Source of the DNA: Hydrogenophaga sp.
GTDB lineage: Bacteria; Pseudomonadota; Gammaproteobacteria; Burkholderiales; Burkholderiaceae_C
Length of the DNA: 64,000 bases
Reading direction: 5' to 3'
NCBI RefSeq assembly: GCF_011772445.1
Contig: NZ_WVZN01000027.1
Span: forward strand, 1-64,000
The stretch's first letter is position 1. The number at the start of each line of letters is the position of its first letter. The notes beneath the pieces were generated by a model that ran no database searches, was not told where the DNA came from, and saw only the letters and a program-made list of their open reading frames with translations. The position numbers and the translations under genes were made by a program. Positions 6,320 to 28,642 of the stretch are shown here, piece after piece.

Positions 6320-7240
6320 ATGAACACCCTGGACGCCATGCACGTCTTCGCCCGCGTGGCCGAGCTGGGCAGCTTCACGCAGGCGGCCAACAGCCTGGGC
6401 CTGCCCAAGGCCAGCGTGTCGGGCGCCGTGCAGCAACTGGAGGCCATGGTGGGCACGCGGCTGCTGCAACGCACCACTCGCCGCGTGAGCGTCACGCAGG
6501 ACGGCCAGGTCTTCCACGAGCGCTGCCGCGACCTGCTGGACGACGTGGAGGACCTGCGCACCCTGTTCCAGCCCGAGGGCGCCGTGCTCAGGGGACGGCT
6601 GCGAGTGGACATGCCGATCGGCGTGGCGCGCCACCTGGTGCTGCCGCGCCTGCCGGACTTCCTGGCCGCGCACCCGCAACTCGACCTCGAGCTGAGCAGC
6701 ACCGACCGCCGCGTCGACCTGGTGCGCGAGGGCTTCGACTGCGTGCTGCGCATCGGACCGCTGGGCGATTCCAGCCTGGTGGCGCGGCCCATCGGCGGCT
6801 GCGAACTCGTGAACGTCGCCAGCCCCGCCTACGTGCGCGCCCACGGCAAGCCCACGCGGCTGGAGCAGCTCGCCGGGCACCGGCTGGTGCACTACGTCAC
6901 CACGCTGGGCGCGCGCTCGCCGGGTTTCGAATACGTCGACGATGCCGGCCACACGCAGTTCCTGCCCATGGCCGGCGCGCTCACCGTGGACAACTCCGAG
7001 GCCTACATGGGCGCCTGTCTCGCGGGCTTGGGCATCGTTCAGGTGCCGCGCTGGGGTGTGGCCGAGCGGCTGCGCGCGGGCGAGCTGGTGGAACTGCTGC
7101 CGCGCCACAAGGCCGCGCCCATGCCGGTGAACCTGCTGTACGCGCACCGGCGCCACCTGCCGCGGCGCGCGCAGGTGTTCATGCAATGGCTGGCCGAGGT
7201 GGTGCGGCCGATGACGGTGCCGCTGGCGCGCGGGCGCTGA
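6320..7240 (+). CDS. LysR-family transcriptional regulator
   Basis: A 306-residue regulator. The ATG at 6320 follows AAAGGAAA and opens MNTLDAMHVFARVAELGSF. The N-terminal helix-turn-helix continues AANSLGLPKASVSGAVQQLE and RLLQRTTRRVSVTQDG. The effector domain begins around residue 90 (RLRVDMPIGVARHLVLPRL). This matches the large CrgA/DsdC-like branch that often controls a divergent oxidoreductase. In-frame codons back to 6224 were rejected because the added residues do not resemble a LysR N-terminus. The SDR at 6205 is the probable target. Confidence 0.92.
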   Translation: MNTLDAMHVFARVAELGSFTQAANSLGLPKASVSGAVQQLEAMVGTRLLQRTTRRVSVTQDGQVFHERCRDLLDDVEDLRTLFQPEGAVLRGRLRVDMPIGVARHLVLPRLPDFLAAHPQLDLELSSTDRRVDLVREGFDCVLRIGPLGDSSLVARPIGGCELVNVASPAYVRAHGKPTRLEQLAGHRLVHYVTTLGARSPGFEYVDDAGHTQFLPMAGALTVDNSEAYMGACLAGLGIVQVPRWGVAERLRAGELVELLPRHKAAPMPVNLLYAHRRHLPRRAQVFMQWLAEVVRPMTVPLARGR

Positions 7241-7245
7241 GGGCG

Positions 7246-8145
7246 TCAGCCCTGGGGGAACAGCAGCGAGCGGTGCGTGGCCGCGCCCGCCATGGCGCCG
7301 TCGCCCACCGCCAGGGCTACATTGCCGGCCGCGCGCGCCAGGTCGCCGCAGGCGAACACGCCGGGCACGGTGGTGGCCTTCATGGCGTCGGTGCGCACGA
7401 ACTCGCCCATGGGGCTTTGTTCCATCGCGCAGCCCAGTTGCGCGGCGATCGGCGTGGCCGGACGCGTCCAGCTCATCGTGAACAGGCCGTCCATGGGCAG
7501 GCGGCGGCCGTCGTCCAGCTCCACCGTGGCGTGCTCCACGAGGCGGCGCACGGGCGTGCGCTCGATGGCCACGCCTCGTGCGTTCAGTTCGCGCCCTTGC
7601 TCCTCGCTGGGCGTGAAGGCCTCGTCCAGGAACAGCGTCACCTGGCCCCAGTCGGGCAGCATCAGGGCGTGGTGCATGGCGAGCTCGCTGCGCGCGAGCA
7701 CGCCGATGCGTCCCTGCTGCAGCTCGTAGCCGTGGCAGTAGGGGCAGTGGAAGACGGCGCGGCCCCAGCGCTCGGCCAGGCCGTCGATCGGCGGCAGCTG
7801 GTCCTCCACACCGGTGGCCAGCACCAGGCGCGCCGCGCTCAGTGTGTCGCCGCTGCTGGTGCGCAGCTCGAAACCCTTGCCGGTGCGCGCCGCGTTCGTC
7901 ACGCTGGCGTCGACCCAGCGCACCGTGGGGTAGGCGCGCAACTGCGCCTGCGCCTCGGCGGCGATGTCCTGCGGCGGGCGGCCGTCCTGCCCCAGGAAGC
8001 CATGCGAATGCGCCGCGAAGCGGTTGCGGCGCTGGCCGGCGTCGATGACCAGCAGGCGGCGGCGCGCGCGCGCCAGTTGCAGCCCGGCGGACACGCCGGC
8101 GTAGCTGCCGCCCACGATGGCGGCGTCGAAGGCTTCAGTGTTCAT
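7246..8145 (-). CDS. NAD(P)/FAD-dependent oxidoreductase, thioredoxin-reductase-like
   Basis: A 299-residue flavoprotein. The FAD-binding GGSYAG motif is at residues 12-17, a redox-active CPYC pair at Cys134 and Cys137, and the C-terminal FAD motif reads TTVPGVFACGDLARA. The sequence resembles the short thioredoxin-reductase-like enzymes found beside Rrf2 regulators more than bona fide TrxB, and no thioredoxin gene is adjacent. It lies 3' of the Rrf2 gene with an 11-base overlap, so the two are co-translated. Its physiological electron acceptor is unknown. Confidence 0.88.
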   Translation of the reverse strand: MNTEAFDAAIVGGSYAGVSAGLQLARARRRLLVIDAGQRRNRFAAHSHGFLGQDGRPPQDIAAEAQAQLRAYPTVRWVDASVTNAARTGKGFELRTSSGDTLSAARLVLATGVEDQLPPIDGLAERWGRAVFHCPYCHGYELQQGRIGVLARSELAMHHALMLPDWGQVTLFLDEAFTPSEEQGRELNARGVAIERTPVRRLVEHATVELDDGRRLPMDGLFTMSWTRPATPIAAQLGCAMEQSPMGEFVRTDAMKATTVPGVFACGDLARAAGNVALAVGDGAMAGAATHRSLLFPQG

Positions 8146-8587
8146 GGAAGTGCTCCCGGTGGGGGTGGGCGCGAAAGCGCCGGTCGAAGTCGGCCGCGAG
8201 GTCGGCCAGGGTGATAGCCGCGAGGCGCTGGTCGATCAGCGCGCGCGCGGCGGCGAGGGTGTCGTCCAGCGCGGCGTTCACCGCCTGCTCCACCAGGCAG
8301 GCCGGGTTCTCGCTGCGGTGGCCCATGGCGAACACCGTGGGCGCGCCCACGGCCTCGTACACATCGCGCAGCGTCACGCGGCGCAGGTCGACGGCGATGG
8401 CCCAGCCGCCACCGTGGCCCTTGCCGGCCACGACGAAGCCCGCGTCGCGCAGGCCCGCGAGCGTCTTGCGCACCACCACGGGGTTGGTGCCGAGCATGCG
8501 CGCCAGTTCATCGGAGGTCATGGGGCGTCCGCTGTGCGCCATGTGCAGCAGCACGTGCAGGACAGAGGAGAGCTTGCTGTCTTTCAT
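8135..8587 (-). CDS. Rrf2-family transcriptional regulator
   Basis: A 150-residue regulator. The N-terminal winged helix shows MKDSKLSSVLHVLLHMA, MTSDELARMLGTNPVVVRKTLAGLRDAGFV and the wing GKGHGGGWAI. Only one cysteine (NPACLVEQ) is present, so the three-cysteine iron-sulfur site of IscR and NsrR is missing. That places it with the YwnA-like, cluster-free Rrf2 proteins. Its own start codon lies inside a perfect 9-base inverted repeat, which suggests tight autoregulation. The overlapping flavoprotein gene is its likely regulated partner. Confidence 0.9.
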   Translation of the reverse strand: MKDSKLSSVLHVLLHMAHSGRPMTSDELARMLGTNPVVVRKTLAGLRDAGFVVAGKGHGGGWAIAVDLRRVTLRDVYEAVGAPTVFAMGHRSENPACLVEQAVNAALDDTLAAARALIDQRLAAITLADLAADFDRRFRAHPHREHFHEH

Positions 8588-8610
8588 GTAACTTTGAAGA
8601 GTACATGAAA
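8582..8610. promoter_or_regulatory. probable Rrf2 operator over the Rrf2 start codon
   Basis: A perfect inverted repeat, TTTCATGTA (8582-8590) and TACATGAAA (8602-8610), is separated by 11 bases. The core fits the 23-base two-half-site layout of NsrR-type Rrf2 sites. It covers the start codon (8585-8587) and leaves no Shine-Dalgarno, so the transcript may be leaderless or start inside the site. Confidence 0.6.
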
Positions 8611-8614
8611 TGCG

Positions 8615-8637
8615 AAACCCCGCTCCAGGCGGGGTTT
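8615..8637 (-). terminator. intrinsic terminator after the MarR gene
   Basis: A perfect 9-base stem, AAACCCCGC against GCGGGGTTT with loop TCCAG, lies 20 bases past the stop of the MarR gene and just before the Rrf2 promoter region. The stem ends are A/T-rich, giving a short T run in the transcript on the minus strand. Confidence 0.65.
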
Positions 8638-8656
8638 TCGGGGAGGGCGTGGCGAC

Positions 8657-9295
8657 TCAGTCGCCGCGCGGTTCTATGCAGGCCTCGAACAGCCGCAGCG
8701 CCGCTTCCAGCGCGTCGTACCCGCCCGCCACCTGGGCGAAGGGCGCCAGGCGCTCGTTGAAGTCGGCCTGCATGCGCGCCATCACCCTGTCCACGATGGC
8801 CTTGCCGCGCGGCGTGAGCCGCACCAGGTAGCCGCGCCGGTCACGCGGGTCGGGCAGGCGCTCCGCCAGGTCCTGCTTGGCGAGCTGGTCGATGCGGTAG
8901 GTGGCGGTGCCCGAGGTCACGCTGTGCATCTTCAGGATGTCGGTGGGCCGCATGGCGCACGGGTCGCCCAGGCGGCGCAGGGCCATCAGCAGCAGGAAGT
9001 CGGTGTGCTTCACGCCCTCGGCTTCGCTGTGCGCCATGGTCAGTTCGTCCAGCAGCATGCCGATGCGCCGGATGCGGATGCCCATCAGCACGCCCTCGGA
9101 ACCCTCGTCGCCCAGCTCGCGGCGCCACTGGCCGACCAGCACATCCGCATTGCCCCACACCGTATTGAGGTCCGGCGCTTCCTGCGGCACGGGCAGGGCG
9201 TCGGCGTACTTGTCCAGCAGCATTTGCGCGGGGGCGTCGGCGCGCGCGCGAATGGTCTTTGCGCGGGTTCGGGTTTTGGGCGGGTTCTTGCTCAT
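8657..9295 (-). CDS. MarR-family transcriptional regulator
   Basis: A 212-residue regulator with an extended basic N-terminus and a winged helix at about residues 95-180: FLLLMALRRLG, the recognition helix SVTSGTATYRIDQLA, and the wing LPDPRDRRGYLVRLTPRG. It is divergent from the Rieske oxygenase gene. A perfect 19-base palindrome sits between them. In this family such a layout usually means repression relieved by the aromatic substrate of the divergent operon. The substrate itself is unknown. Confidence 0.92.
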   Translation of the reverse strand: MSKNPPKTRTRAKTIRARADAPAQMLLDKYADALPVPQEAPDLNTVWGNADVLVGQWRRELGDEGSEGVLMGIRIRRIGMLLDELTMAHSEAEGVKHTDFLLLMALRRLGDPCAMRPTDILKMHSVTSGTATYRIDQLAKQDLAERLPDPRDRRGYLVRLTPRGKAIVDRVMARMQADFNERLAPFAQVAGGYDALEAALRLFEACIEPRGD

Positions 9296-9346
9296 CGTCG
9301 GACAAGGGCTCTGGTGCTTTGAGGCTCGAGTATCGGGGTTTTCACT

Positions 9347-9365
9347 TATCTTGATTTTCAAGATA
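9347..9365. promoter_or_regulatory. MarR operator palindrome
   Basis: A perfect palindrome, TATCTTGA-TTT-TCAAGATA, lies in the 129-base MarR/oxygenase intergenic region. It has the size and A/T-rich dyad form of MarR-family operators of aromatic-acid pathways. It could sit in the spacer of a TTCACT (9341-9346) / TACTTA (9364-9369) promoter facing the oxygenase gene. Confidence 0.7.
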
Positions 9366-9424
9366 CTTAATATTATTCCAATCCAGAAAGCGACCCCTCC
9401 CACCGACACGCACAGGACCACCCC

Positions 9425-10657
9425 ATGAGCAAGACCATTCCCATCGTCGACGCGGCCCAGCACGCCGGCAGCGCCTACCACCACGTGCCCGGCCACCCCG
9501 ACCCGCAGCTCAGCGCTGTGGCGAAGGGCACGCCCACCGGCGAGTACCTGCGCCGCTACTGGCAGCCCGTGGCGCTGTCGGCCGACGTGACCGATCGCCC
9601 GCAGATGGTGCGCATCCTGGGCGAGGACCTGGTGCTGTTCCGCGACAAGGCCGGCCGCGCCGGCCTGCTGTACCCGCGCTGCATGCACCGCGGCACCTCG
9701 CTCTACTACGGCCACGTGGAAGAGGCGGGCATCCGCTGCTGTTACCACGGCTGGCTGTTCGCGGTGGACGGCACCTGCCTGAACCAGCCCTGCGAGCCCG
9801 AGGGCGGCCTGCGCCGCGAGGCCGCGCGCCAGCCCTGGTACCCGGTGGAAGAGCGCTACGGCCTGGTGTTCGCCTACATGGGCCCGCCCGAGAAGAAGCC
9901 CGTGCTGCCGCGCTACGACATCCTCGAAGACCTGGAAGAGGGGGAGTTCATCGAGGTCCAGGGCGGTGGCTTCGCCGGCTACGCCGACCATGTGCAAGAC
10001 CCGAACGTGCCTTACCACTGGCTGCAGAACTGGGAAAACATCATGGACCCGTACCACGTGTACATCCTGCATTCCACGTTCAGCGGCATCCAGTTCGCCG
10101 AGAACTTCAAGATCCTGCCGCGCGTGGACTTCGAGGCCGTGGACGGCGGCGTGATCTACCACGCCTGGCGCGATCTGGAGGACGGCAGGAAGCTCGAGCG
10201 CATCAACTCCGCGCTGTTCCCCAACATCTCGGCCATTCCCATGATCGACCTCTCGCCCGGCCAGGGCCGCTGGATCGGCTGGCACGTGGCGGTGGACGAC
10301 CAGCACTTCCGCGGCTTCTTCGCCGCGCGCACCAAGACGCCGGGCAACTTCGCGCCCTTCAAGATGCACAACGGCAAATCCTGGACGGAGCTCAGCGAGC
10401 AGGAGAAGCAGGACTTCCCCGGCGACTTCGAGGCCCAGTACGGCCAGGGGCGCGTCACGCTGCATGGCGAGGAGCACCTGGCCACCAGCGACCGCGGCAT
10501 CGCGCTGCTGCGCCGCCAGATGAAGCAGCAGATCGCCATCGTTCAACAGGGGGGAGATCCCGCGGGCGTGCACTTCAACGAGGCCGACGCCCTGGTCCGC
10601 ATCCGCTCGGGCAACTTCTATTCGACCTCGGACACGACCGAAACCGCCACGGCCTGA
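9425..10657 (+). CDS. Rieske non-heme iron oxygenase, large subunit
   Basis: A 410-residue oxygenase. The Rieske [2Fe-2S] ligands are visible as Cys86/His88 (CMHRG) and Cys105/His108 (CCYHGW). The mononuclear iron site is visible as Asp208, His211 and His216 within DPYHVYILH. Length and the RCCYHGWLF / NQPCEPEGG pattern place it with the phthalate-dioxygenase-like and LigX-like O-demethylase group rather than with two-subunit naphthalene-type enzymes. No small subunit or ferredoxin gene is nearby. Its likely electron donor is the reductase at 15250, five transporter genes downstream. The substrate is probably an aromatic acid or aryl methyl ether (inference). Confidence 0.92.
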   Translation: MSKTIPIVDAAQHAGSAYHHVPGHPDPQLSAVAKGTPTGEYLRRYWQPVALSADVTDRPQMVRILGEDLVLFRDKAGRAGLLYPRCMHRGTSLYYGHVEEAGIRCCYHGWLFAVDGTCLNQPCEPEGGLRREAARQPWYPVEERYGLVFAYMGPPEKKPVLPRYDILEDLEEGEFIEVQGGGFAGYADHVQDPNVPYHWLQNWENIMDPYHVYILHSTFSGIQFAENFKILPRVDFEAVDGGVIYHAWRDLEDGRKLERINSALFPNISAIPMIDLSPGQGRWIGWHVAVDDQHFRGFFAARTKTPGNFAPFKMHNGKSWTELSEQEKQDFPGDFEAQYGQGRVTLHGEEHLATSDRGIALLRRQMKQQIAIVQQGGDPAGVHFNEADALVRIRSGNFYSTSDTTETATA

Positions 10658-20495: not shown

Positions 20496-21656
20496 ATGAA
20501 CCGCCGACACGACATCGACACCCTGCGTTTCCTGGCCTTCGCGCTGGTGATGGTCTACCACCTGGGCATGGCCTACGTGGCCGACTGGCCCTGGCACCTG
20601 AAAAGCGCGCACGCGGCCGAGTGGCTGCAGTGGCCCATGCGCGCGCTCAACCTGTGGCGACTGGACCTGGTGTTCCTGGTCTCGGGGCTGGCACTGGGCT
20701 TGCTGATGCGCCGCGAGACGCCGGCGCCGGCGCTGTGGCGCCAGCGCAGCGCACGCCTGCTGCTGCCGCTGGCCTTCGGCATGGCGGTGGTGGTGCCCTA
20801 CCAGGCCTATGCGCAGGCGCTGGCGGGGGGCTTCATCGAGCCCGGGTTCGGCGCCTTCCTGTGGCGCTACGCACAGGGCGGCCCCTGGCCGGCCCAGGCC
20901 TTCGACGGCGCGCACGTCGGCGTCACCTGGAACCACCTGTGGTTCCTGCCTTACCTGTGGGCCTACACCTCGGTGCTGCTGCTGGCGCGGCGTGCGCTGG
21001 CCCCACTGGCCCCGCGCTTCCAGGCGTTGCGCGGCGCGTGGCTCATGCTGCTGCCCCTGCTGCCGCTCATGATGGGGTCGCTGCTGCTGCGCCGCCATTT
21101 CCCGCCCACGCACGACCTGGTCAACGACTGGTGGATGCACGCCGTGTACTTCACCGTCTTCCTCTACGGCTGGTGGATCGGCACCGACGCCGCGCTGTGG
21201 CGCGAGCTCACGCGCCTGCGCTGGTGGGCGCTGGGCGGGGCGGTGCTGGCCTTCGCCGCGCACCTGGGTTTTCGCCTGGGGCTGACGACGCCCTGGCCCT
21301 GGGCGCGGCTGGCGGCCGACGCCGTGTCCTGGTGGGCCATCGTGGCGGCGCTGGGCTTCGCGCACCGCCACCTGAACCGCCCCTGGCCCTGGCTGGGCTG
21401 GGCGCGCGAGTCGGTCTATCCCTGGTACGTGCTGCACCAGACCCTGATCATCGTGGCGCTGGCCTGGCTGATGCCGCTGGGTCTCGGGCCGGTGGCCGAG
21501 CCACTGGGCGTGCTCACGCTCACGGTGCTGGGCTGCTGGGCGCTCAACGACGGCCTGATCCGCCGCGTGGGGTGGTTGCGCGCGTGCTTCGGGCTGGCGC
21601 CCCTGCGCCGGATCTCAGCGCCCTTGCAGGCGCAGCTGCCCCGGCAGGGGCAATGA
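20496..21656 (+). CDS. acyltransferase family protein (Acyltransferase_3/OpgC-like)
   Basis: A 386-residue integral membrane protein with about ten hydrophobic segments. The N-terminus reads RRHDIDTLRFLAFALVMVYHL, the conserved arginine/histidine opening of the acyltransferase-3 family, and further segments include FLVSGLALGLL and HLWFLPYLWAY. Such enzymes move acyl groups to surface glycans or glucans. The acceptor is unknown and no glycan genes are adjacent. Its last 42 bases overlap the convergent dehydratase gene. Confidence 0.88.
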   Translation: MNRRHDIDTLRFLAFALVMVYHLGMAYVADWPWHLKSAHAAEWLQWPMRALNLWRLDLVFLVSGLALGLLMRRETPAPALWRQRSARLLLPLAFGMAVVVPYQAYAQALAGGFIEPGFGAFLWRYAQGGPWPAQAFDGAHVGVTWNHLWFLPYLWAYTSVLLLARRALAPLAPRFQALRGAWLMLLPLLPLMMGSLLLRRHFPPTHDLVNDWWMHAVYFTVFLYGWWIGTDAALWRELTRLRWWALGGAVLAFAAHLGFRLGLTTPWPWARLAADAVSWWAIVAALGFAHRHLNRPWPWLGWARESVYPWYVLHQTLIIVALAWLMPLGLGPVAEPLGVLTLTVLGCWALNDGLIRRVGWLRACFGLAPLRRISAPLQAQLPRQGQ

Positions 21657-22520
21657 GCGCCGCAGCACGTCCTCGGCCAGCCACAGGGCGCTGCGGCGCG
21701 CGCGCTCGGCCACCATGGGCAGGGGCATCTGCTGGTAGTCGTCGTTGAAGACCTCGAAGCTGTAGTCGCCGCTGTAGCCCATGGCGTCCAGTGTCTGCAC
21801 CATCTCGATGAGCTGCGGCGTGTGAACGCCCTCGCCCGGAAAGACGCGCCAGGTGCGCGCCGTGGTCATGCGCTCCTCGAAGGTGCGCGTCTCCTGCCAC
21901 AGGAAGTCGGAGAGCTGCACCAGGAAGACCTTGCCGGGCTCGATGTCGGCCAGCGCGTCCAGCGGCGTTTTCGCGGCCAGGATGTGGAAGCTGTCCAGGC
22001 AGACGCCCAGGTTGGGGCAGTCGGCGCGGCTCACCACGTCCCAGGCGCTGGTGTATTCGTTGATGGTGCGGCCCCAGGACAGGCCCTCGTAGGCGATGCG
22101 GATGCCCAGTGGCAGCGCCAGCATGGCGAGCTTGCGCAGGTCGCGCGCGAGGTGATCGGGGTCCTGCGAGGCGTGGGCCGAGGTGGACGAACAGGCCAGC
22201 AGCACCTGGCTGTCCAGCGCGGCGCACATGCGCAGCATGGTCTTGGCGATGTCGAGCTTGTAGTCGTGCAGGTGGCCCGAGAGGCCTTCGAAGTCGCGCA
22301 GCACCTGAAAGCCGGTGGCGCGCAGGCCGCTGGCCTTTACCTCGGCCACCGCGGCCTGCCAGCCGGCGGGGTGGCCCACGAGGTCGTTGGCCTTGAGCAT
22401 GACCTGGCCGAAACCGGCCTCGCGCATGGCGCGCAGCTTGGCGTCCAGCGGGCCGGCCAGGGTGATGGTGTCCATGCCGACGTCGCGCATGGCCTCGCGG
22501 GCGCTGCGTGGGTCGTTCAT
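21615..22520 (-). CDS. 3-dehydroshikimate dehydratase, TIM-barrel domain as a stand-alone protein
   Basis: A 301-residue AP-endonuclease-2/xylose-isomerase-like TIM barrel. Metal-site residues match the QuiC/AsbF dehydroshikimate dehydratases in order and spacing: Glu145 (AYEGLSWG), Asp176 with His179 (CLDSFH), Gln202 (FLVQLSDF) and Glu256 (SFEVFND). The reaction would be 3-dehydroshikimate to protocatechuate plus water. In QuiC1 proteins this domain is N-terminal and fused to an HPPD-like VOC domain. Here the VOC partner is a separate gene placed upstream, overlapping by 4 bases. It is the last gene of the shikimate/quinate operon. Confidence 0.85.
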   Translation of the reverse strand: MNDPRSAREAMRDVGMDTITLAGPLDAKLRAMREAGFGQVMLKANDLVGHPAGWQAAVAEVKASGLRATGFQVLRDFEGLSGHLHDYKLDIAKTMLRMCAALDSQVLLACSSTSAHASQDPDHLARDLRKLAMLALPLGIRIAYEGLSWGRTINEYTSAWDVVSRADCPNLGVCLDSFHILAAKTPLDALADIEPGKVFLVQLSDFLWQETRTFEERMTTARTWRVFPGEGVHTPQLIEMVQTLDAMGYSGDYSFEVFNDDYQQMPLPMVAERARRSALWLAEDVLRRSLPLPGQLRLQGR

Positions 22521-23443
22521 GGTGCCGTCCTGGCCTGCGGGTCCTGCACCAGCTCGAACACCACGCCGCCCAGGTAGGCCCTGGTGATGGCGCCGCGCCG
22601 CTCGGCATGCACCGCCTCCGACTCGACGAATTCCACGCCGCGATCGCGCAGCGCGCGCACGGCGGCCAGCACGTCGCTCACGCCGATGCCGATGCGCTGC
22701 CACTGCTCGCGATCATCCAGGGCGTCCACGGGCGGCTCCACGAGCTGCAGCAGGAAACCTTGCCCGGGCCGCCGCCCCGGCACGCGCAGCAGGTGGCCCG
22801 CGGGCATGATGCCGAAGCGCTCCTCGTCGGGGATGGGCGTGGCACCGAGCAGGGTCTCGTAGAAGGCGGTCCAGTCGCCGCTGCGGCCCAGGCCGATGTA
22901 CTGCACCAGGCCGAACAGGCGCATGTCGAACAGCGCGGGCGGGTGCGGGTCCACGCCGGGGATCGGGACGAAGTCCACGTCGTAGATCGAGAAGTCGCGG
23001 TAGCGGTCGATCAGGTAGAGGCGGCTGCCGCCCACGCCGTGGATGGCGGGGATGTTGAGCTCCATGGCCTCGGGGTGCGTGGGCACCTCCCAGCCGCCGC
23101 GCGAGAGCACGTACTCGCGCGCGGCGCGGGCGTCGCGCACGCGCAGGCCCACGGCACCGATCACCGGCCGCGCATCGCCGTGCGCCGCGCCGAGCGCGTC
23201 GATGGGGTGCGCGTTCACCACCAGGTTGAGCGCGCCCTGGCGGTACAGCAGCACCTCGCGCGAGCGGTGCCGCGCCACCGGGCGAAAGCCCATCATCTCC
23301 AGCACCTGGCCCAGGGCCTGCGGCTGCAAGGTGGCGTACTCGACGAACTCGATGCCGTCGAGGCCGAGCGGGTTGTCGGTGTCGCTGGTGGACGCCTGCA
23401 GCGGCTCGCGCGCGGGCAAGGCGTCGATCGACGCTTCGTTCAT
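22517..23443 (-). CDS. HPPD-like VOC protein, stand-alone QuiC C-terminal domain homologue
   Basis: A 308-residue protein with two VOC modules. The first carries GLDGIEFVEYAT and RHRSREVLLYRQGALNLVVN; the second starts near LFGLVQYIGLGR. It resembles 4-hydroxyphenylpyruvate dioxygenase and the C-terminal half of QuiC1. At the positions where HPPD has its first two metal histidines this protein appears to have Gly (LFGLVQ) and Arg (QRIGIG), while the final glutamate (VFELVQ) remains. It is therefore probably not a dioxygenase, and may stabilise or modulate the dehydratase encoded next to it (inference). Both ends overlap neighbours by ATGA. Confidence 0.8.
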   Translation of the reverse strand: MNEASIDALPAREPLQASTSDTDNPLGLDGIEFVEYATLQPQALGQVLEMMGFRPVARHRSREVLLYRQGALNLVVNAHPIDALGAAHGDARPVIGAVGLRVRDARAAREYVLSRGGWEVPTHPEAMELNIPAIHGVGGSRLYLIDRYRDFSIYDVDFVPIPGVDPHPPALFDMRLFGLVQYIGLGRSGDWTAFYETLLGATPIPDEERFGIMPAGHLLRVPGRRPGQGFLLQLVEPPVDALDDREQWQRIGIGVSDVLAAVRALRDRGVEFVESEAVHAERRGAITRAYLGGVVFELVQDPQARTAP

Positions 23444-24315
23444 GGTTTCGCCTCCTGAGGGGCCGGTGGCGGCGTGTCGAGCTGCGCGAGTTCGCGCAGG
23501 CGCTCGGGCGTGGCCACCGGCAGGCCGAAGAACTCGAGGTAGGCGGGGATCTGCTCGAACAGCATGTCGGTGCCCACCTGCACGCGGCAGCCGCGCGCCT
23601 GCGCGGCCGACAGGAAGGCGGTGAAGCGCTCGCGCATGACCACCTCGCCCACGAAGCTGCGGGCGTCCAGGCGGTCCACGTCCAGCGGCAGCGGGTCGCC
23701 GGGCGCCATGCCCAGCGGCGTGGCGTTGACCACGAGGTCGACGCCGGCCGGGTCGCGTTCGCCGGTGCTGATCTGAAGCAAGGGATAGGCCGCGCGCAGG
23801 CGCCCGCTCAAGGCCTCGCTGGCCGCGCCGTTCGTGTCGAACAGCGACAGATGCGCCACGCCCGCCGCCGCCAGCGAGGCCGCGATGGCCGAGCCCACAC
23901 CGCCGCTGCCCACGACGAGGGCGCTGGCACCTTTCAGCGCCAGGCCCTTGCGCTGCACGCCGCGCACGAAGCCCTCGCCATCGAACATGTCGCCGATCAG
24001 GCGGCCGTTGGGCGCGCGCTTCACCGCGTTGCAGGCGCCGGCCACCTGCGCGGTGCGCGAAACCTCGTCGAGCAGCGCCACCACGCCCACTTTGTGCGGC
24101 ATGGTGATGAGAGCGCCGATCACATTGGGCGCGGCCATCAGCGGCGGCAGCAGCGATTCGAGCGCGCCGGCCGGGCAGTCGATGGGCACCACCACCGCGG
24201 GGGTGCCGCTGGCCGCGAACCAGGGGTTGTAGATCAGCGGCGCCTTGAAGCTGTGCGTGGGATGGCCCAGGTGGACGATCACCCGGGTGTGGCCGTCGAT
24301 GCGGGGCGTGTTCAT
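23440..24315 (-). CDS. aroE: shikimate dehydrogenase, catabolic context
   Basis: A 291-residue AroE-family enzyme. The substrate domain opens with LGHPTHSFKAPLIYN. Catalytic Lys75 (MPHK) pairs with Asp112 (MFDGEGF), and the nucleotide-binding loop is GSGGVGSA. It would interconvert shikimate and 3-dehydroshikimate. Placed between a TRAP transporter and the dehydratase genes, it most likely works in the oxidative, catabolic direction. A biosynthetic aroE is expected elsewhere. The gene symbol is used for family membership only. Confidence 0.87.
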   Translation of the reverse strand: MNTPRIDGHTRVIVHLGHPTHSFKAPLIYNPWFAASGTPAVVVPIDCPAGALESLLPPLMAAPNVIGALITMPHKVGVVALLDEVSRTAQVAGACNAVKRAPNGRLIGDMFDGEGFVRGVQRKGLALKGASALVVGSGGVGSAIAASLAAAGVAHLSLFDTNGAASEALSGRLRAAYPLLQISTGERDPAGVDLVVNATPLGMAPGDPLPLDVDRLDARSFVGEVVMRERFTAFLSAAQARGCRVQVGTDMLFEQIPAYLEFFGLPVATPERLRELAQLDTPPPAPQEAKP

Positions 24316-24334: not shown

Positions 24335-25636
24335 TCAGCCGGTGTAGCCGGCCAGGCGCGGCAGGAACAGCACGAAGTCGGGCCAGAAGGTGGTGATGGC
24401 CAGCGCGATCAGCATCACGCCCAGGAAGGGCAGGGTGGCGCGCACCAGATCGCCGAGGGAGACGTTGGCGATCCTGGTCATCATGAACAGCAGCAGGCCA
24501 TAAGGCGGTGTGACCAGGCCGATCATGATGTTGAGCACCGCCATCACGCCGAAGTGCACCGGGTCCACGCCCAGGGCCACGGCCGTGGGCAGCAGCACGG
24601 GCAGGATCACCAGGATGATGGTGGAGCCTTCGAGGAAGGCGCCCAGCACCAGCAGCAGCAGGTTGGCCAGCAGCAGGAAGGTGAAGGGCGAGAGCTCGAG
24701 TCCCTTCATCACCGCGCTCAGCGAGGCGGGGATGTTCTCCGAGGTGATGACGAAGTTGAACACCGTGGCGCCCGCGATCAGGATGCCGATGGACACGCTG
24801 GTGCGCGCGCTCTGCTGCAGCGACTCGTAGACGTCGCGCAGGCGCAGGCTGCGGTAGTAGAAGGCCGCGATCAGCAGCGCATAGGCGGCGGCCACGCCGG
24901 CGGCCTCGGTGGGCGTGGTGATGCCGCTGTAGAGGCAGCCCAGCAGCAGCAGCGGCATCATCAGCGCGGGCAGGGCCTCGCGCGTGATGCGCGGCAGCTC
25001 GCGCAGCGGCACCGCGTCTTCCACCGGGAAGCGGTGGCGCTTGGCCAGGTAGTGGATCAGCGCCATCTGCACCGCGCCCAACAGCAGCCCGGGCAGCACG
25101 CCGGCCAGGAAGAGGTAGCCGATGGAGGTGCCCGAGACCAGCGCGTACAGCACCAGCGGAATCGATGGCGGCAGGATCGGCCCGATGACGGCCGACACCG
25201 CGGTGAGCGCGGCCGCGAAGGAGGCCGGGTAGCGGCCGTCGCGCGTCATCATGGCCTGCATGAGCTTGCCCGAGCCGGCCGCGTCGGCCAGGGCCGAGCC
25301 CGACATGCTGGCAAACACCACGCTCTGCAGCACGTTCACCTGCGCCAGGCCGCCGGGAAAGCGGCCCACCAGCGCGTTGCACCAGCGCAGCAGGCGGTCG
25401 AGCACGCTGCCCGAGCTCATGAAGCTGGCGGCCAGGATGAACAGCGGAATGGCCAGCAGCAGGTAGCTGGAATAGGTGCTGTTGAGCAGTTGCTCGGCCG
25501 CGCTGCCCATGTCCATGCCCTTGAGCCACAGGTAAAGGATGGACGCGCCGATCATGGCCTGCCCGATCGGCACGCCCAGCAGGCTCAGCAGCACGATGGC
25601 CGCGACGGCCAGCGAGAAGGGACTCGTCGGGTTCAC
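24335..25636 (-). CDS. TRAP transporter large permease (DctM-like)
   Basis: A 433-residue inner-membrane protein with at least twelve hydrophobic segments. Typical DctM segments include LLGVPIGQAMIGAS, AAGSGKLMQAMMTRDGRYP and LPPSIPLVLYALVSG. The C-terminal half has ITPPYGLLLFMMTRIANVS-like residues (VTPPYG). It carries the transport pathway of a sodium-driven uptake system. It overlaps the small-subunit gene by 4 bases. Confidence 0.93.
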   Translation of the reverse strand: MNPTSPFSLAVAAIVLLSLLGVPIGQAMIGASILYLWLKGMDMGSAAEQLLNSTYSSYLLLAIPLFILAASFMSSGSVLDRLLRWCNALVGRFPGGLAQVNVLQSVVFASMSGSALADAAGSGKLMQAMMTRDGRYPASFAAALTAVSAVIGPILPPSIPLVLYALVSGTSIGYLFLAGVLPGLLLGAVQMALIHYLAKRHRFPVEDAVPLRELPRITREALPALMMPLLLLGCLYSGITTPTEAAGVAAAYALLIAAFYYRSLRLRDVYESLQQSARTSVSIGILIAGATVFNFVITSENIPASLSAVMKGLELSPFTFLLLANLLLLVLGAFLEGSTIILVILPVLLPTAVALGVDPVHFGVMAVLNIMIGLVTPPYGLLLFMMTRIANVSLGDLVRATLPFLGVMLIALAITTFWPDFVLFLPRLAGYTG

Positions 25637-26205
25637 AGGGAGCCTATGTGGGTGGATTCGGTCTGCTCACGCCCACGGATGGCGTTCACGATCAGCCACA
25701 GGTGACGCGCGATGACGGCCACGGTGAACACGAGGTAGATCGAGTAGAGCCAGTCGAAGCGGATCTTCAGGTACGAGCTGCTCTCCACCTTCATGAACGT
25801 CACGTAGTCCCAGGTGGCGGGCAGGGCCAGCGCGAACAGCAGCACGATGGCGATGGAGCCCAGCGAGGAGAGCACGCGCCGCCCGCGCGGGCCGAACATG
25901 GACAGCAGCAGATCGATGCGGATCTCCTCCTCGTCGCGCAGCACGAAGGCCGAGCCCCACAGGATCAGCCAGAGCCAGGCGACGAGCGAAATCTCCGCCG
26001 TCCAGCCCACCGGCAGATCGAACAGGTAGCGCAACGCGATCTGCAGGATGAAGGCGAGGAAGATCACACCCAGAAGGACGGCGGCCACAGCCTCGGCTGC
26101 ACGCGCGAGGAGGCCGAACCCAGAGGCACCGAGGAACCGGCTTTGCCGGGCCTCAGGTGCCGCCCCCTCGAGGGGGTCGCGCGAAGCGCGGCGGGGGTGA
26201 TTCAT
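25633..26205 (-). CDS. TRAP transporter small permease (DctQ-like)
   Basis: A 190-residue membrane protein with four helices. The core begins near residue 32 (LLARAAEAVAAVLLG) and includes the family motif LRYLFDLPVGWTAEISLVAWLW. The ATG at 26205 shares a base with the stop of the binding-protein gene; a GTG one codon earlier is possible. Residues 4-30 are an unusual basic and polar extension. Residues 5-23 of it are encoded by a palindrome-rich repeat, so the N-terminus looks like repeat DNA absorbed into the reading frame. Confidence 0.9.
   Translation of the reverse strand: MNHPRRASRDPLEGAAPEARQSRFLGASGFGLLARAAEAVAAVLLGVIFLAFILQIALRYLFDLPVGWTAEISLVAWLWLILWGSAFVLRDEEEIRIDLLLSMFGPRGRRVLSSLGSIAIVLLFALALPATWDYVTFMKVESSSYLKIRFDWLYSIYLVFTVAVIARHLWLIVNAIRGREQTESTHIGSL
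26137..26190. repeat. REP-like triple palindrome inside the 5' end of the DctQ-like gene
   Basis: Three perfect dyads lie in a row: CCGGC-TTT-GCCGG (26137-26149), CCCCCTCGAGGGGG (26163-26176) and CGCGC-GAA-GCGCG (26178-26190). The arrangement resembles dispersed extragenic palindromic repeats of high-GC betaproteobacteria, but here it is translated. Confidence 0.5.
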
Positions 26206-27194
26206 CACTTGACCGCGGCGATCTTGTCGATGATTCCGGGCGCCCAGGCCTTCGCTTCGTCCGACGCCAGGTAGATCTTCTGCGCGTGCTCGCGGAAGGC
26301 GTTGATGTTGGGCACGTACACGTCCAGCCCCTGGCGCTTGAAGCCCTCGGCCAGTTCGGCCTCGCGCTTGACGTGCTCGTTCGCGCTCCAGGTGATGGCC
26401 TTGTCCACCGCCGCCTGGAAGGCCTTCTGCTTGTCGGCCGACATCGCCTGCCAGGCCTTGAGGTTCATGGTGAGCAGGTCGAAGGCCACCAGGTGCGAGG
26501 TGAGCACGACCTGGCCCATCACCTCGTAGAACTTCATGTTCTGCACGTTGGGCAGCGGGTTGTCCTGGCCGTCCACGGTGCCGGTCTGCAGGGCCGTGTA
26601 GGTCTCGGCGTAGGCCAGCGGCGTGGGGTTGGCGCCCAGCGAGCGGCCCAGCAGCTGCCAGGCGTCGCCCGCGGGCATGCGCAGCTTCACCCCGGCCAGG
26701 TCGGCCGGCACGTTGACCTTCTTCTTGCCGCGCAGGCCCACGTGGCGCGTGCCGAAGAAGGTGGGGCCCAGGATCTTCACCTTCAGCTGGTCCTCCACCT
26801 GCTTCTTCATCTGCGCGCCCAGGTCGCTGGCGAAGAAGGCGTTGAGGTGGTTGGCGTCGCGGAACAGGTAGGCCGAGGTCAGCACCGACCAGGCCGGCAC
26901 CTGCTTGGAGATGTCCTGCGGCGCGATGTTGCCCATCTCCAGGTTGTCGCGCTGCAGGGCCACGAGTTCGGTCCCCTGGCGGAACAGCGTGGAGTTCAGG
27001 TGCGCCTCGATGCTGTGGTCGGGTGCGATGTCGGCGCTCAGGCGCCTGATCATCTCGGCGCGGATGTCGGTGTCCGAGAACACCGCGGCGAAGCGCAGCT
27101 TGCTTTGCGCGCGGGCGCGGCCCGGCAGCAGGGCCCCGGCGGCCAGGCCGGCGCCGGCGCAGAGGAGGGAACGGCGGTCGATGGTGCGGTTCAT
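26205..27194 (-). CDS. TRAP transporter substrate-binding protein (DctP-like)
   Basis: A 329-residue periplasmic receptor. MNRTIDRRSLLCAGAG is a twin-arginine-like signal with cleavage near RARAQS. The mature protein has LAGVKLRMPAG with the substrate-gripping arginine and the LAYAETYTALQTGTVDGQDNP-type segment (YTALQTGTVDG) of the DctP family. Surrounding genes imply a hydroaromatic acid such as shikimate, quinate or dehydroshikimate as ligand (inference). Confidence 0.92.
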   Translation of the reverse strand: MNRTIDRRSLLCAGAGLAAGALLPGRARAQSKLRFAAVFSDTDIRAEMIRRLSADIAPDHSIEAHLNSTLFRQGTELVALQRDNLEMGNIAPQDISKQVPAWSVLTSAYLFRDANHLNAFFASDLGAQMKKQVEDQLKVKILGPTFFGTRHVGLRGKKKVNVPADLAGVKLRMPAGDAWQLLGRSLGANPTPLAYAETYTALQTGTVDGQDNPLPNVQNMKFYEVMGQVVLTSHLVAFDLLTMNLKAWQAMSADKQKAFQAAVDKAITWSANEHVKREAELAEGFKRQGLDVYVPNINAFREHAQKIYLASDEAKAWAPGIIDKIAAVK

Positions 27195-27239: not shown

Positions 27240-27692
27240 TCAGGCGGTGGCGGCCTCGCGCAGCCGCTGCGCCACCGCGTGCAGCGCGAGCTCGTAACCC
27301 ATGGGGCCGAGTCCGCAGATCACGCCGGTGCTGGCCAGGGAGGTGAGCGAGTCCTTGTAGGGCGCTTCGCGGCGGTGGATGTTGGTGATGTGGACCTCGA
27401 TCACCGGCAGGTCCAGCATCTTCAGCGCGTCCAGCAGAGGGATCGAGCGGAAGGACAGGCCAGCCGGGTTGATGATCACCGCCGCGCCGGCGGCGCGCGC
27501 TTCCTGCACCCAGTCCACCAGCACGCCTTCGTGGTTGGACTGGCGGAACACGCAGTTCAGCCCGAGTTCGGCGGACAGCGTGAGGCAGCGCGCCTGCACC
27601 TGCGCCAGGGTGGTGTGGCCGTACAGGTGCGGCTCGCGCACCCCCAGCAGGTTCAGGTTGGGGCCGTTGAGGATGTGTACGGTGGCGCTCAT
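27240..27692 (-). CDS. aroQ: type II 3-dehydroquinate dehydratase, divergent active site
   Basis: A 150-residue type II dehydroquinase with NGPNLNLLG, Arg19, Tyr24, QSNHEG, Asn75 (INPAG), Asp88, His101 and Arg108 all in register with the family. Two residues differ from the usual enzyme: Phe81 replaces the expected His of the THTS loop, and Tyr112 replaces an Arg. It should convert 3-dehydroquinate to 3-dehydroshikimate. The first position in the operon and the altered loop suggest a catabolic paralogue, possibly with shifted specificity. Upstream in-frame codons were rejected because they run into the operator region. Confidence 0.88.
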   Translation of the reverse strand: MSATVHILNGPNLNLLGVREPHLYGHTTLAQVQARCLTLSAELGLNCVFRQSNHEGVLVDWVQEARAAGAAVIINPAGLSFRSIPLLDALKMLDLPVIEVHITNIHRREAPYKDSLTSLASTGVICGLGPMGYELALHAVAQRLREAATA

Positions 27693-27795
27693 CGTGGGGG
27701 TGGGAGTGCGGCGGCGGGCTTGGCCGGAAGGGGCGCGTGGCCTACAGTCGTCTCCTGCTGTCGTGTGGCTGGAAGGCGATTCTTGGGCCGCCACA

Positions 27796-27826
27796 GGAAA
27801 CACTTTCCGCATTGGAAACAGCTTCC
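27796..27826. promoter_or_regulatory. tandem IclR-type operators
   Basis: Two near-identical palindromes, GGAAACACTTTCC (27796-27808) and GGAAACAGCTTCC (27814-27826), are each followed by GCAT and lie 18 bases apart. They match the GGAAA-N3-TTTCC core known for IclR-family sites. They lie between the divergent aroQ operon and the IclR gene and could control both. Confidence 0.75.
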
Positions 27827-27847
27827 GCATCACAAAAATTCAGAGAC

Positions 27848-28642
27848 ATGAACCTCGCTCTTGACCGCGGCCTCTCGCTGCTCGAACACCTCTCGCGCCA
27901 CCCCGACGGCCTGCCGCTGGCCCTGATGGCCGAGGAACTGGACATCCCCCTGAGCGCCTGCCACCGCCTGCTGGGCGACCTGCAGCAGCGCGGTTACGTG
28001 CGCCAGAAGCGCAAACAGGGCGACTACCAGCTGACCACCAAGGTGGTGGCCATCGGCCTGGGCTACCTCAGCCACGGCGGCATCGTCGACATCGCGGGGC
28101 CCTTGCTGGAGCGGCTCGCGCAGCTCTCGGGCGAACTGGTGCGCCTGTCCCTGGTGGACGACGACCGCCTCACCTTCGTGGCCAAGGCCCAGGGGGCGCG
28201 CCAGCAGGGCGTGCGCTACGACCCCGACATGGGCGCCGACGTCTGGCTGTCGTGCTCGGCCTCGGGGCACGCCTGGCTGCACACGCTCAGCGACGAGCGC
28301 GCGCTGGAACTGGTGACGCGCCAGGGATTCGGCACGCCCAGGGACTACGGCCCCAAGGCGCCGACGACGGTGAAGGCCATGCTGGGCTTTCTGCACGCGG
28401 CACGCGTGCGCGGGTACGCCATGATCGATGAGGTCTTCGCGCCCGGCATGAGCGCCATGGCAGCGCCGGTGATGCGCCGCCACGAGGCCATCGGCGTGAT
28501 CAGCATTGCCGGACCGCGCACGCGGCTGAGCGTGGCGCGCATGCAGGAACTCGCGCCCGCGCTGCTGGCGGCGGCGGCGGAGTTGGGGCCGATCAGCAAC
28601 GCGTCCAGCCTGTTCGGTCGGCCACCCCTGGGCAAAGGGTGA
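27848..28642 (+). CDS. IclR-family transcriptional regulator
   Basis: A 264-residue regulator. The winged helix at residues 1-65 reads LDRGLSLLEHLSRHPDG, IPLSACHRLLGDLQQRGYV and GDYQLTTKV. The effector domain has the family's MIDEVFAPGMSAMAAPV region. The ATG at 27848 directly follows the tandem operators. Earlier in-frame codons run through the operators and were rejected. It probably senses a hydroaromatic or protocatechuate-type effector and controls the divergent shikimate/quinate operon, as PcaR/PobR relatives do in aromatic pathways. Confidence 0.92.
   Translation: MNLALDRGLSLLEHLSRHPDGLPLALMAEELDIPLSACHRLLGDLQQRGYVRQKRKQGDYQLTTKVVAIGLGYLSHGGIVDIAGPLLERLAQLSGELVRLSLVDDDRLTFVAKAQGARQQGVRYDPDMGADVWLSCSASGHAWLHTLSDERALELVTRQGFGTPRDYGPKAPTTVKAMLGFLHAARVRGYAMIDEVFAPGMSAMAAPVMRRHEAIGVISIAGPRTRLSVARMQELAPALLAAAAELGPISNASSLFGRPPLGKG

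Follow-up and report, generated by a model that had tools for sequence, protein, structure and literature searches.

A metal-dead HPPD-like protein as the probable partner of a single-domain dehydroshikimate dehydratase-type barrel in Hydrogenophaga and related bacteria

Introduction

Dehydroshikimate dehydratases of the QuiC1/QsuB type, for which the original QuiC1 paper is reportedly that of Peek et al. 2017, combine two folds in one chain of ∼635 residues: a TIM barrel, then a VOC-superfamily domain resembling 4-hydroxyphenylpyruvate dioxygenase (HPPD). Analysed here is a natural two-gene form, carried by the window (the 64,000-nucleotide stretch of Hydrogenophaga sp. contig NZ_WVZN01000027.1), in which a single-domain barrel of this type is encoded directly behind an HPPD-like VOC protein, so that the halves are separated and the metal site of the second is removed. 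Many related bacteria retain this gene pair, and the metal-dead VOC protein is therefore probably the partner of the enzyme rather than an enzyme itself. The reading favoured here, with moderate confidence, is that it serves the dehydratase as a non-catalytic subunit, acting through its N-terminal domain.

For the HPPD-like half of the two-domain enzyme QsuB, a stabilising role has been proposed (PMC7442255; repeated in PMC9324987), and no activity on protocatechuate was seen for it. Without this domain, QsuB is mostly monomeric, has about one third of the kcat and another type of product inhibition, and its product yield in E. coli is threefold lower (PMC7442255). Since the halves of the present system are separated in nature, adding the partner, omitting it or deleting its gene requires no truncation of a protein.

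Two further comparisons can be drawn by description. DnrV (PMC12979805), a member of the VOC family, has its gene immediately upstream of that of its client enzyme, the P450 DoxA; by binding the product, DnrV keeps it from inhibiting the enzyme, and its authors liken DnrV to a non-metal VOC protein. The VOC protein studied here resembles DnrV in family and gene position. Qa-4 and AsbF resemble the barrel as single-domain, metal-dependent TIM barrels, and the available text of PMC9324987 mentions no VOC partner for them. No two-gene VOC-barrel dehydratase is named in the titles and abstract openings of the papers listed by searches of an open-licence library, a scope that leaves most subscription papers outside.

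Compared with QuiC1/QsuB (PDB: 5hmq; NF042435), the locus has the same two folds, shares the active-site residues of the barrel and likely serves the same pathway. It differs in that the parts lie in two genes with the VOC gene first, in that the VOC protein reads Gly-Arg-Glu (GRE) at the metal triad where most QuiC1 C-domains read His-His-Glu (HHE), and in that both of its proteins fall outside the fused clades.

Results

The VOC protein retains the HPPD fold but not its metal site

The two genes and the codons of the former metal site are arranged as follows.

22517..23443, minus strand: voc, HPPD-like VOC protein, 308 aa, metal-dead
21615..22520, minus strand: barrel, single-domain dehydroshikimate-dehydratase-type TIM barrel, 301 aa (key residues E145, D176, Q202, E256)
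22517..22520, minus strand: ATGA, 4-bp overlap of the voc stop and the barrel start
22910-22912, minus strand: voc codon for G178
22694-22696, minus strand: voc codon for R250
22553-22555, minus strand: voc codon for E297

As the original prediction held, these are separate, overlapping genes with the VOC gene first.

The VOC protein has the two-domain VOC fold of HPPD. It matches the HPPD N-terminal domain in Pfam (PF14696, E 1.1e-43), and its best PDB sequence matches are Pseudomonas HPPDs (E 1.5e-35 and 6.7e-35), followed by the QuiC1 C-domain (E 1.1e-15). Against the HPPD family model TIGR01263, it scores 69.7 bits, well short of the cut-off of 277, and it falls outside that family. When aligned with the HPPD of the same genome and with five fused QuiC1 C-domains, the HPPD triad corresponds to Gly178-Arg250-Glu297, and all three codons were confirmed by eye in the DNA. 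The proposal that Gly and Arg replace the two metal histidines while the glutamate is kept was thus upheld, and the alignment places no intact histidine at either position. Relative to the Pseudomonas-type HPPD (1cjx), the VOC protein has lost both histidines, its aligned sequence lacks the C-terminal tail and ∼30 residues ahead of the final strands, and its C-domain is only ∼23% identical.

The GRE triad is a fixed signature of the VOC orthologues. It was read in 46/46 rows from relatives and the window and in all of the best 80 named loci of a wider scan, hence in 126/126 aligned rows, species being shared between the two sets. It recurs in all 17 rows of an order-wide set, 15 of which come from genomes not counted before, and in both plasmid copies found. 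Many further residues are invariant across both VOC domains. As controls, 25 of 26 HPPDs read HHE (the remaining one reads HHR, probably through misalignment), as do 32 of 35 fused QuiC1 C-domains, the other three reading HQE. These three, with Gln at the second metal histidine, are L066 4020-5918, L238 and L239. The Hydrogenophaga genome also encodes a separate HPPD with an HHE triad (G000:C10). Both annotated VOC copies found, on Massilia putida plasmid NZ_CP019037.1 and Vitreoscilla filiformis plasmid pVF1 (L290), are labelled 4-hydroxyphenylpyruvate dioxygenase, an annotation corrected by these results.

The barrel keeps the dehydratase active site

The barrel belongs to the xylose-isomerase-like TIM barrels (PF01261, E 1e-23, 84.8 bits against a gathering threshold of 31.1), and its best PDB sequence match is QuiC1 (5hmq, E 1e-40). 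NF042435, the QuiC1 model, gives 156.9 bits for the barrel and 63.9 for the VOC protein; both lie below the curated cut-off of 1200, which most fused relatives also miss (7 of 299 genomes score above it).

Alignment with five fused QuiC1 barrels bore out the predicted dehydratase residues Glu145, Asp176, Gln202 and Glu256. Of the ten active-site positions taken from PMC7442255 and mapped from QsuB by alignment pattern, nine are kept (R75, L108, E145, L147, D176, H179, Q202, R225 and E256); at the tenth, the QsuB Ser is Ala, as it is in two of the five fused proteins compared. Seven key dehydratase residues are all present in the window barrel and in 132 of 141 barrel rows, and three of the nine exceptions are incomplete rows.

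The pair is conserved across related genera

A VOC orthologue (at least 51% identity) was found in 47 of 197 relatives, clearly apart from true HPPDs, which reach 36-46% among the matches listed. In 46 of the 47, it lies upstream of a barrel on the same strand; in the last (G060), the two are on different contigs. The VOC-barrel gap ranges from -4 to +105 bases in 45 of the 46, with the caveat that gaps depend on the choice of start codon, and an aroE-like gene stands between the two in G124. The order VOC, aroE-like dehydrogenase gene, barrel occurs at L075, L320, L321 and L322. L111, a fused QuiC1, was dropped from the pair set.

A wider genome scan confirmed at least 582 stretches, of which the best 80 named loci were used. 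A barrel follows the VOC gene on the same strand in 78 of the 80, the other two reaching a contig end; in four of the 78 (L129, L144, L157, L158), the barrel is incomplete or broken in two. These loci span Hydrogenophaga, Ramlibacter, Curvibacter, Polaromonas, Malikia, Tepidimonas, Variovorax, Pseudorhodoferax and Limnohabitans. Chance neighbourhood is rejected on the 46 of 47 and 78 of 80 counts. Further afield, the VOC protein occurs in 19/399 genomes of the order and in 5/398 phylum-wide genomes (overlapping sets), the next match in the latter being an HPPD at half the score.

A full-length fused QuiC1 accompanies the pair in 4 of 64 pair-bearing genomes (G110, G088, G684, G847). In the other 60, no full-length fused match was found, in a search that a contig-broken fused gene could escape and that was confined to this dehydratase class; the pair is therefore the only sign of this dehydratase family there. 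On the Massilia putida plasmid (L291), fused QuiC1 (134-2056) and the pair (6977-8748) lie ∼5 kb apart in one cluster.

The two-gene form did not arise by splitting a sampled QuiC1

The original prediction described the locus as QuiC split into two genes, and in this wording it is not supported by the trees. A barrel tree was built from 18 of the 46 two-gene barrels, 19 of the 35 fused QuiC1 barrels and two lone barrels. The 19 fused barrels form one clade (SH-aLRT 100), to which neither the two-gene barrels (87) nor the lone barrels belong; three of these latter rows sit on long branches. The VOC tree held 23 metal-dead VOC proteins, two from a second lineage described below, 11 of the 35 fused C-domains, 15 HPPDs and two divergent outgroup HPPDs. 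Here, the metal-dead VOC proteins form one clade (100/100), as do the 11 QuiC1 C-domains (100/100). The two clades group together at 97/96 inside HPPD, both on long branches, and the approximately unbiased test leaves alternatives standing (metal-dead VOC with HPPD, p 0.275; QuiC1 with HPPD, p 0.21).

Because the fused clades exclude the two-gene forms for both parts, no sampled QuiC1 gave rise to the two-gene form by fission, and a recent fission is rejected for the sampled proteins. The two-gene form would be either an ancient sister of the fused lineage or a separate recruitment, both origins being compatible with these trees.

The N-terminal domain is the more conserved half of the VOC protein

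Conservation is unevenly distributed along the VOC protein. Mean identity to HPPD falls from 47.9% in the N-domain to 22.7% in the C-domain; among HPPDs themselves, the values are 62.9% and 63.4%. The median ratio of nonsynonymous to synonymous substitution rates (dN/dS) is 0.23 for the N-domain, 0.36 for the C-domain and 0.28 for the barrel (721 usable of 903 pairs, which are non-independent). The partial VOC protein of L079 entered the residue counts, but distances and dN/dS were computed without it and without L072, and dN/dS also without L065. The former catalytic C-domain, at ∼23% identity to HPPD, is remodelled.

A second lineage, at L316 3280-4927 and L317 6925-8620 (genomes G684 and G847), encodes a shorter HPPD-like VOC protein in which all three metal ligands are lost. 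At both loci, an aroE-like gene comes first, then the VOC gene, then a barrel whose residues are intact, and a fused QuiC1 diverges from them. Between the two genomes, 140/150 residues of the N-domain and 285/297 of the barrel are identical, against 67/126 of the C-domain; the corresponding dN/dS values, from slightly shorter stretches, are ∼0.06, ∼0.05 and ∼0.46. In this lineage, the N-domain and the barrel are near-frozen while the C-domain drifts. Together with the domain conservation above, this pattern suggests that what counts for the barrel is the N-domain.

Genomic context suggests quinate/shikimate breakdown

Upstream of voc, five further genes complete an apparent quinate/shikimate operon, all seven genes being on the minus strand.

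23440..24315, minus strand: aroE-like quinate/shikimate dehydrogenase, 4-bp overlap with voc at 23440-23443
24335..25636, minus strand: DctM, TRAP transporter large permease (profile matches)
25633..26208, minus strand: DctQ, TRAP transporter small permease (Pfam)
26205..27194, minus strand: DctP, TRAP transporter substrate-binding protein (profile matches)
27240..27692, minus strand: aroQ, type II 3-dehydroquinate dehydratase (profile matches)

The aroE-like product scores above the cut-off of Pfam Shikimate_dh_N and matches the NCBIfam AroE models below theirs. The dctM/dctQ and dctQ/dctP junctions are 4-bp overlaps, and the start of aroQ was taken as the Met just before the Pfam match, inside the open reading frame 27240-27833. 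Elsewhere in the genome, both subunits of protocatechuate 4,5-dioxygenase (LigAB) are found above their cut-offs. The operon's AroQ, AroE-like protein, TRAP transporter and barrel, together with LigAB, fit the breakdown of quinate or shikimate to protocatechuate.

Discussion

A proposed non-catalytic subunit of the dehydratase

In the model proposed here, the TRAP transporter would take up quinate or shikimate-like acids, which would be converted via 3-dehydroquinate and 3-dehydroshikimate to protocatechuate, with the barrel as the putative metal-dependent dehydroshikimate dehydratase. The VOC protein would descend from an HPPD and have lost iron binding, its metal histidines having become Gly and an invariant Arg, and Arg250 probably pairs with the kept Glu297. 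Made in step with the barrel, it would bind it through the HPPD N-terminal domain and assemble, stabilise or tune the dehydratase, by analogy with what has been proposed for the HPPD-like C-domain of QuiC1/QsuB. A complex of this kind, with a structural or regulatory VOC protein as originally predicted, is plausible. The invariant GRE triad, the conserved pairing, the kept dehydratase residues of most barrels, the conservation of the N-domain, the pattern in the second lineage, LigAB, the 60 of 64 genomes in which no fused match was found and the QsuB truncation data all argue for this subunit role.

Several observations weigh against it. The N-domain is more constrained than the C-domain in 626 of 721 pairs, and so not in all, and the C-domain of the main lineage is under purifying selection and is therefore not mere ballast. 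The correlation of VOC and barrel distances (r 0.92, 44 proteins) is uncorrected for shared ancestry. The N-domain of QsuB alone is active, with half the Km and slightly more activity at physiological pH than the whole protein, and oligomerisation alone gave no rise in activity (PMC7442255); the single-domain Qa-4 and AsbF are likewise active without a partner (PMC9324987). Barrels with intact residues also occur alone, with no VOC gene beside them (L080, L081). Finally, barrels that have lost metal ligands stand beside a GRE VOC protein in six genomes (G088, G083, G832, G875, G800, G646), which a pure helper-of-dehydratase role leaves unexplained. Taken together, the degenerate and the lone barrels indicate that the barrel has no strict need of the VOC protein and that the pair may have a second role.

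The degenerate barrels lie at L072 9361-10230, L065, L318, L324, L293 and L325, and their replacements include E145K with E256D or E256L. G875 and G800 share the same barrel replacements, with dN/dS of ∼0.28 for the VOC protein and ∼0.38 for the barrel. A search for full-length fused QuiC1, which did not extend to other dehydratase classes, found none in five of the six genomes. The sixth, G088, carries a fused QuiC1 with intact residues (L072 6440-8329) directly upstream of its pair (8390-10230). IclR-family genes adjoin or lie near the pair in L318, L325 and L324. The lone barrel at L080 (6637-7506), of intact dehydratase type, sits in an aroE/transporter/aroQ cluster.

Alternative roles

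The main rival to the subunit reading, which we regard as doubtful, is that the VOC protein is a ligand-binding helper: protocatechuate or dehydroshikimate would occupy its remodelled aromatic pocket, and it would thereby relieve product inhibition or act as an allosteric sensor. DnrV, a product-binding VOC protein beside its enzyme, offers a precedent (PMC12979805), and QsuB is inhibited by protocatechuate (Ki ∼0.38 mM) in a manner whose type is altered by the HPPD-like domain (PMC7442255). The invariant Arg that replaces a metal histidine could hold a carboxylate, and purifying selection on the C-domain in the main lineage would suit a ligand pocket. The drift of the C-domain at L316/L317, beside a near-frozen N-domain and barrel, speaks against it.

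That the VOC protein is itself an enzyme, acting on a pathway intermediate without metal or at a relocated site, is improbable. Purifying selection on both domains and the many residues invariant across them would be expected of an enzyme; however, the C-domain, the seat of HPPD chemistry, is the less conserved half, the inferred pathway has no evident unassigned step, and the L316/L317 form has lost the Glu as well.

More improbable still is that the pair, at least in some lineages, is a non-catalytic sensor or regulator made from two dead enzymes. The six genomes with degenerate barrels beside GRE VOC proteins, five of them lacking a full-length fused match, invite this view, as do the shared replacements under selection in G875/G800 and the nearby IclR-family genes, but the window barrel and most others (132/141) keep all seven residues. 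That the VOC protein is a functioning HPPD, as both plasmid records label it, or a decaying pseudogene is barely credible: two of the three metal ligands are absent from every row read, the genome has its own HHE HPPD, the TIGR01263 score is far too low, and dN/dS well under 1 together with residue invariance leads to rejection of a pseudogene.

Returning to the subunit reading, a broader extension of it is speculative and rather unlikely as a whole. The HPPD N-domain may have become a dedicated dehydroshikimate dehydratase partner module in Burkholderiales, its iron domain first locked by the Arg-Glu pair and drifting in one lineage; in some genomes, both partners would be metal-dead and under selection, perhaps as a sensor of a quinate-pathway metabolite.

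Flanking genes

One regulatory gene borders the operon of the window on its upstream side.

27848..28642, plus strand: IclR-family regulator, divergent (profile matches)

Its start was taken as an internal Met of the open reading frame 27737-28642, and it possibly regulates the voc/barrel operon. At the other end, a gene for an acyltransferase-3 family membrane protein (20496-21656 of the window) is convergent with the barrel gene and slightly overlaps its end.

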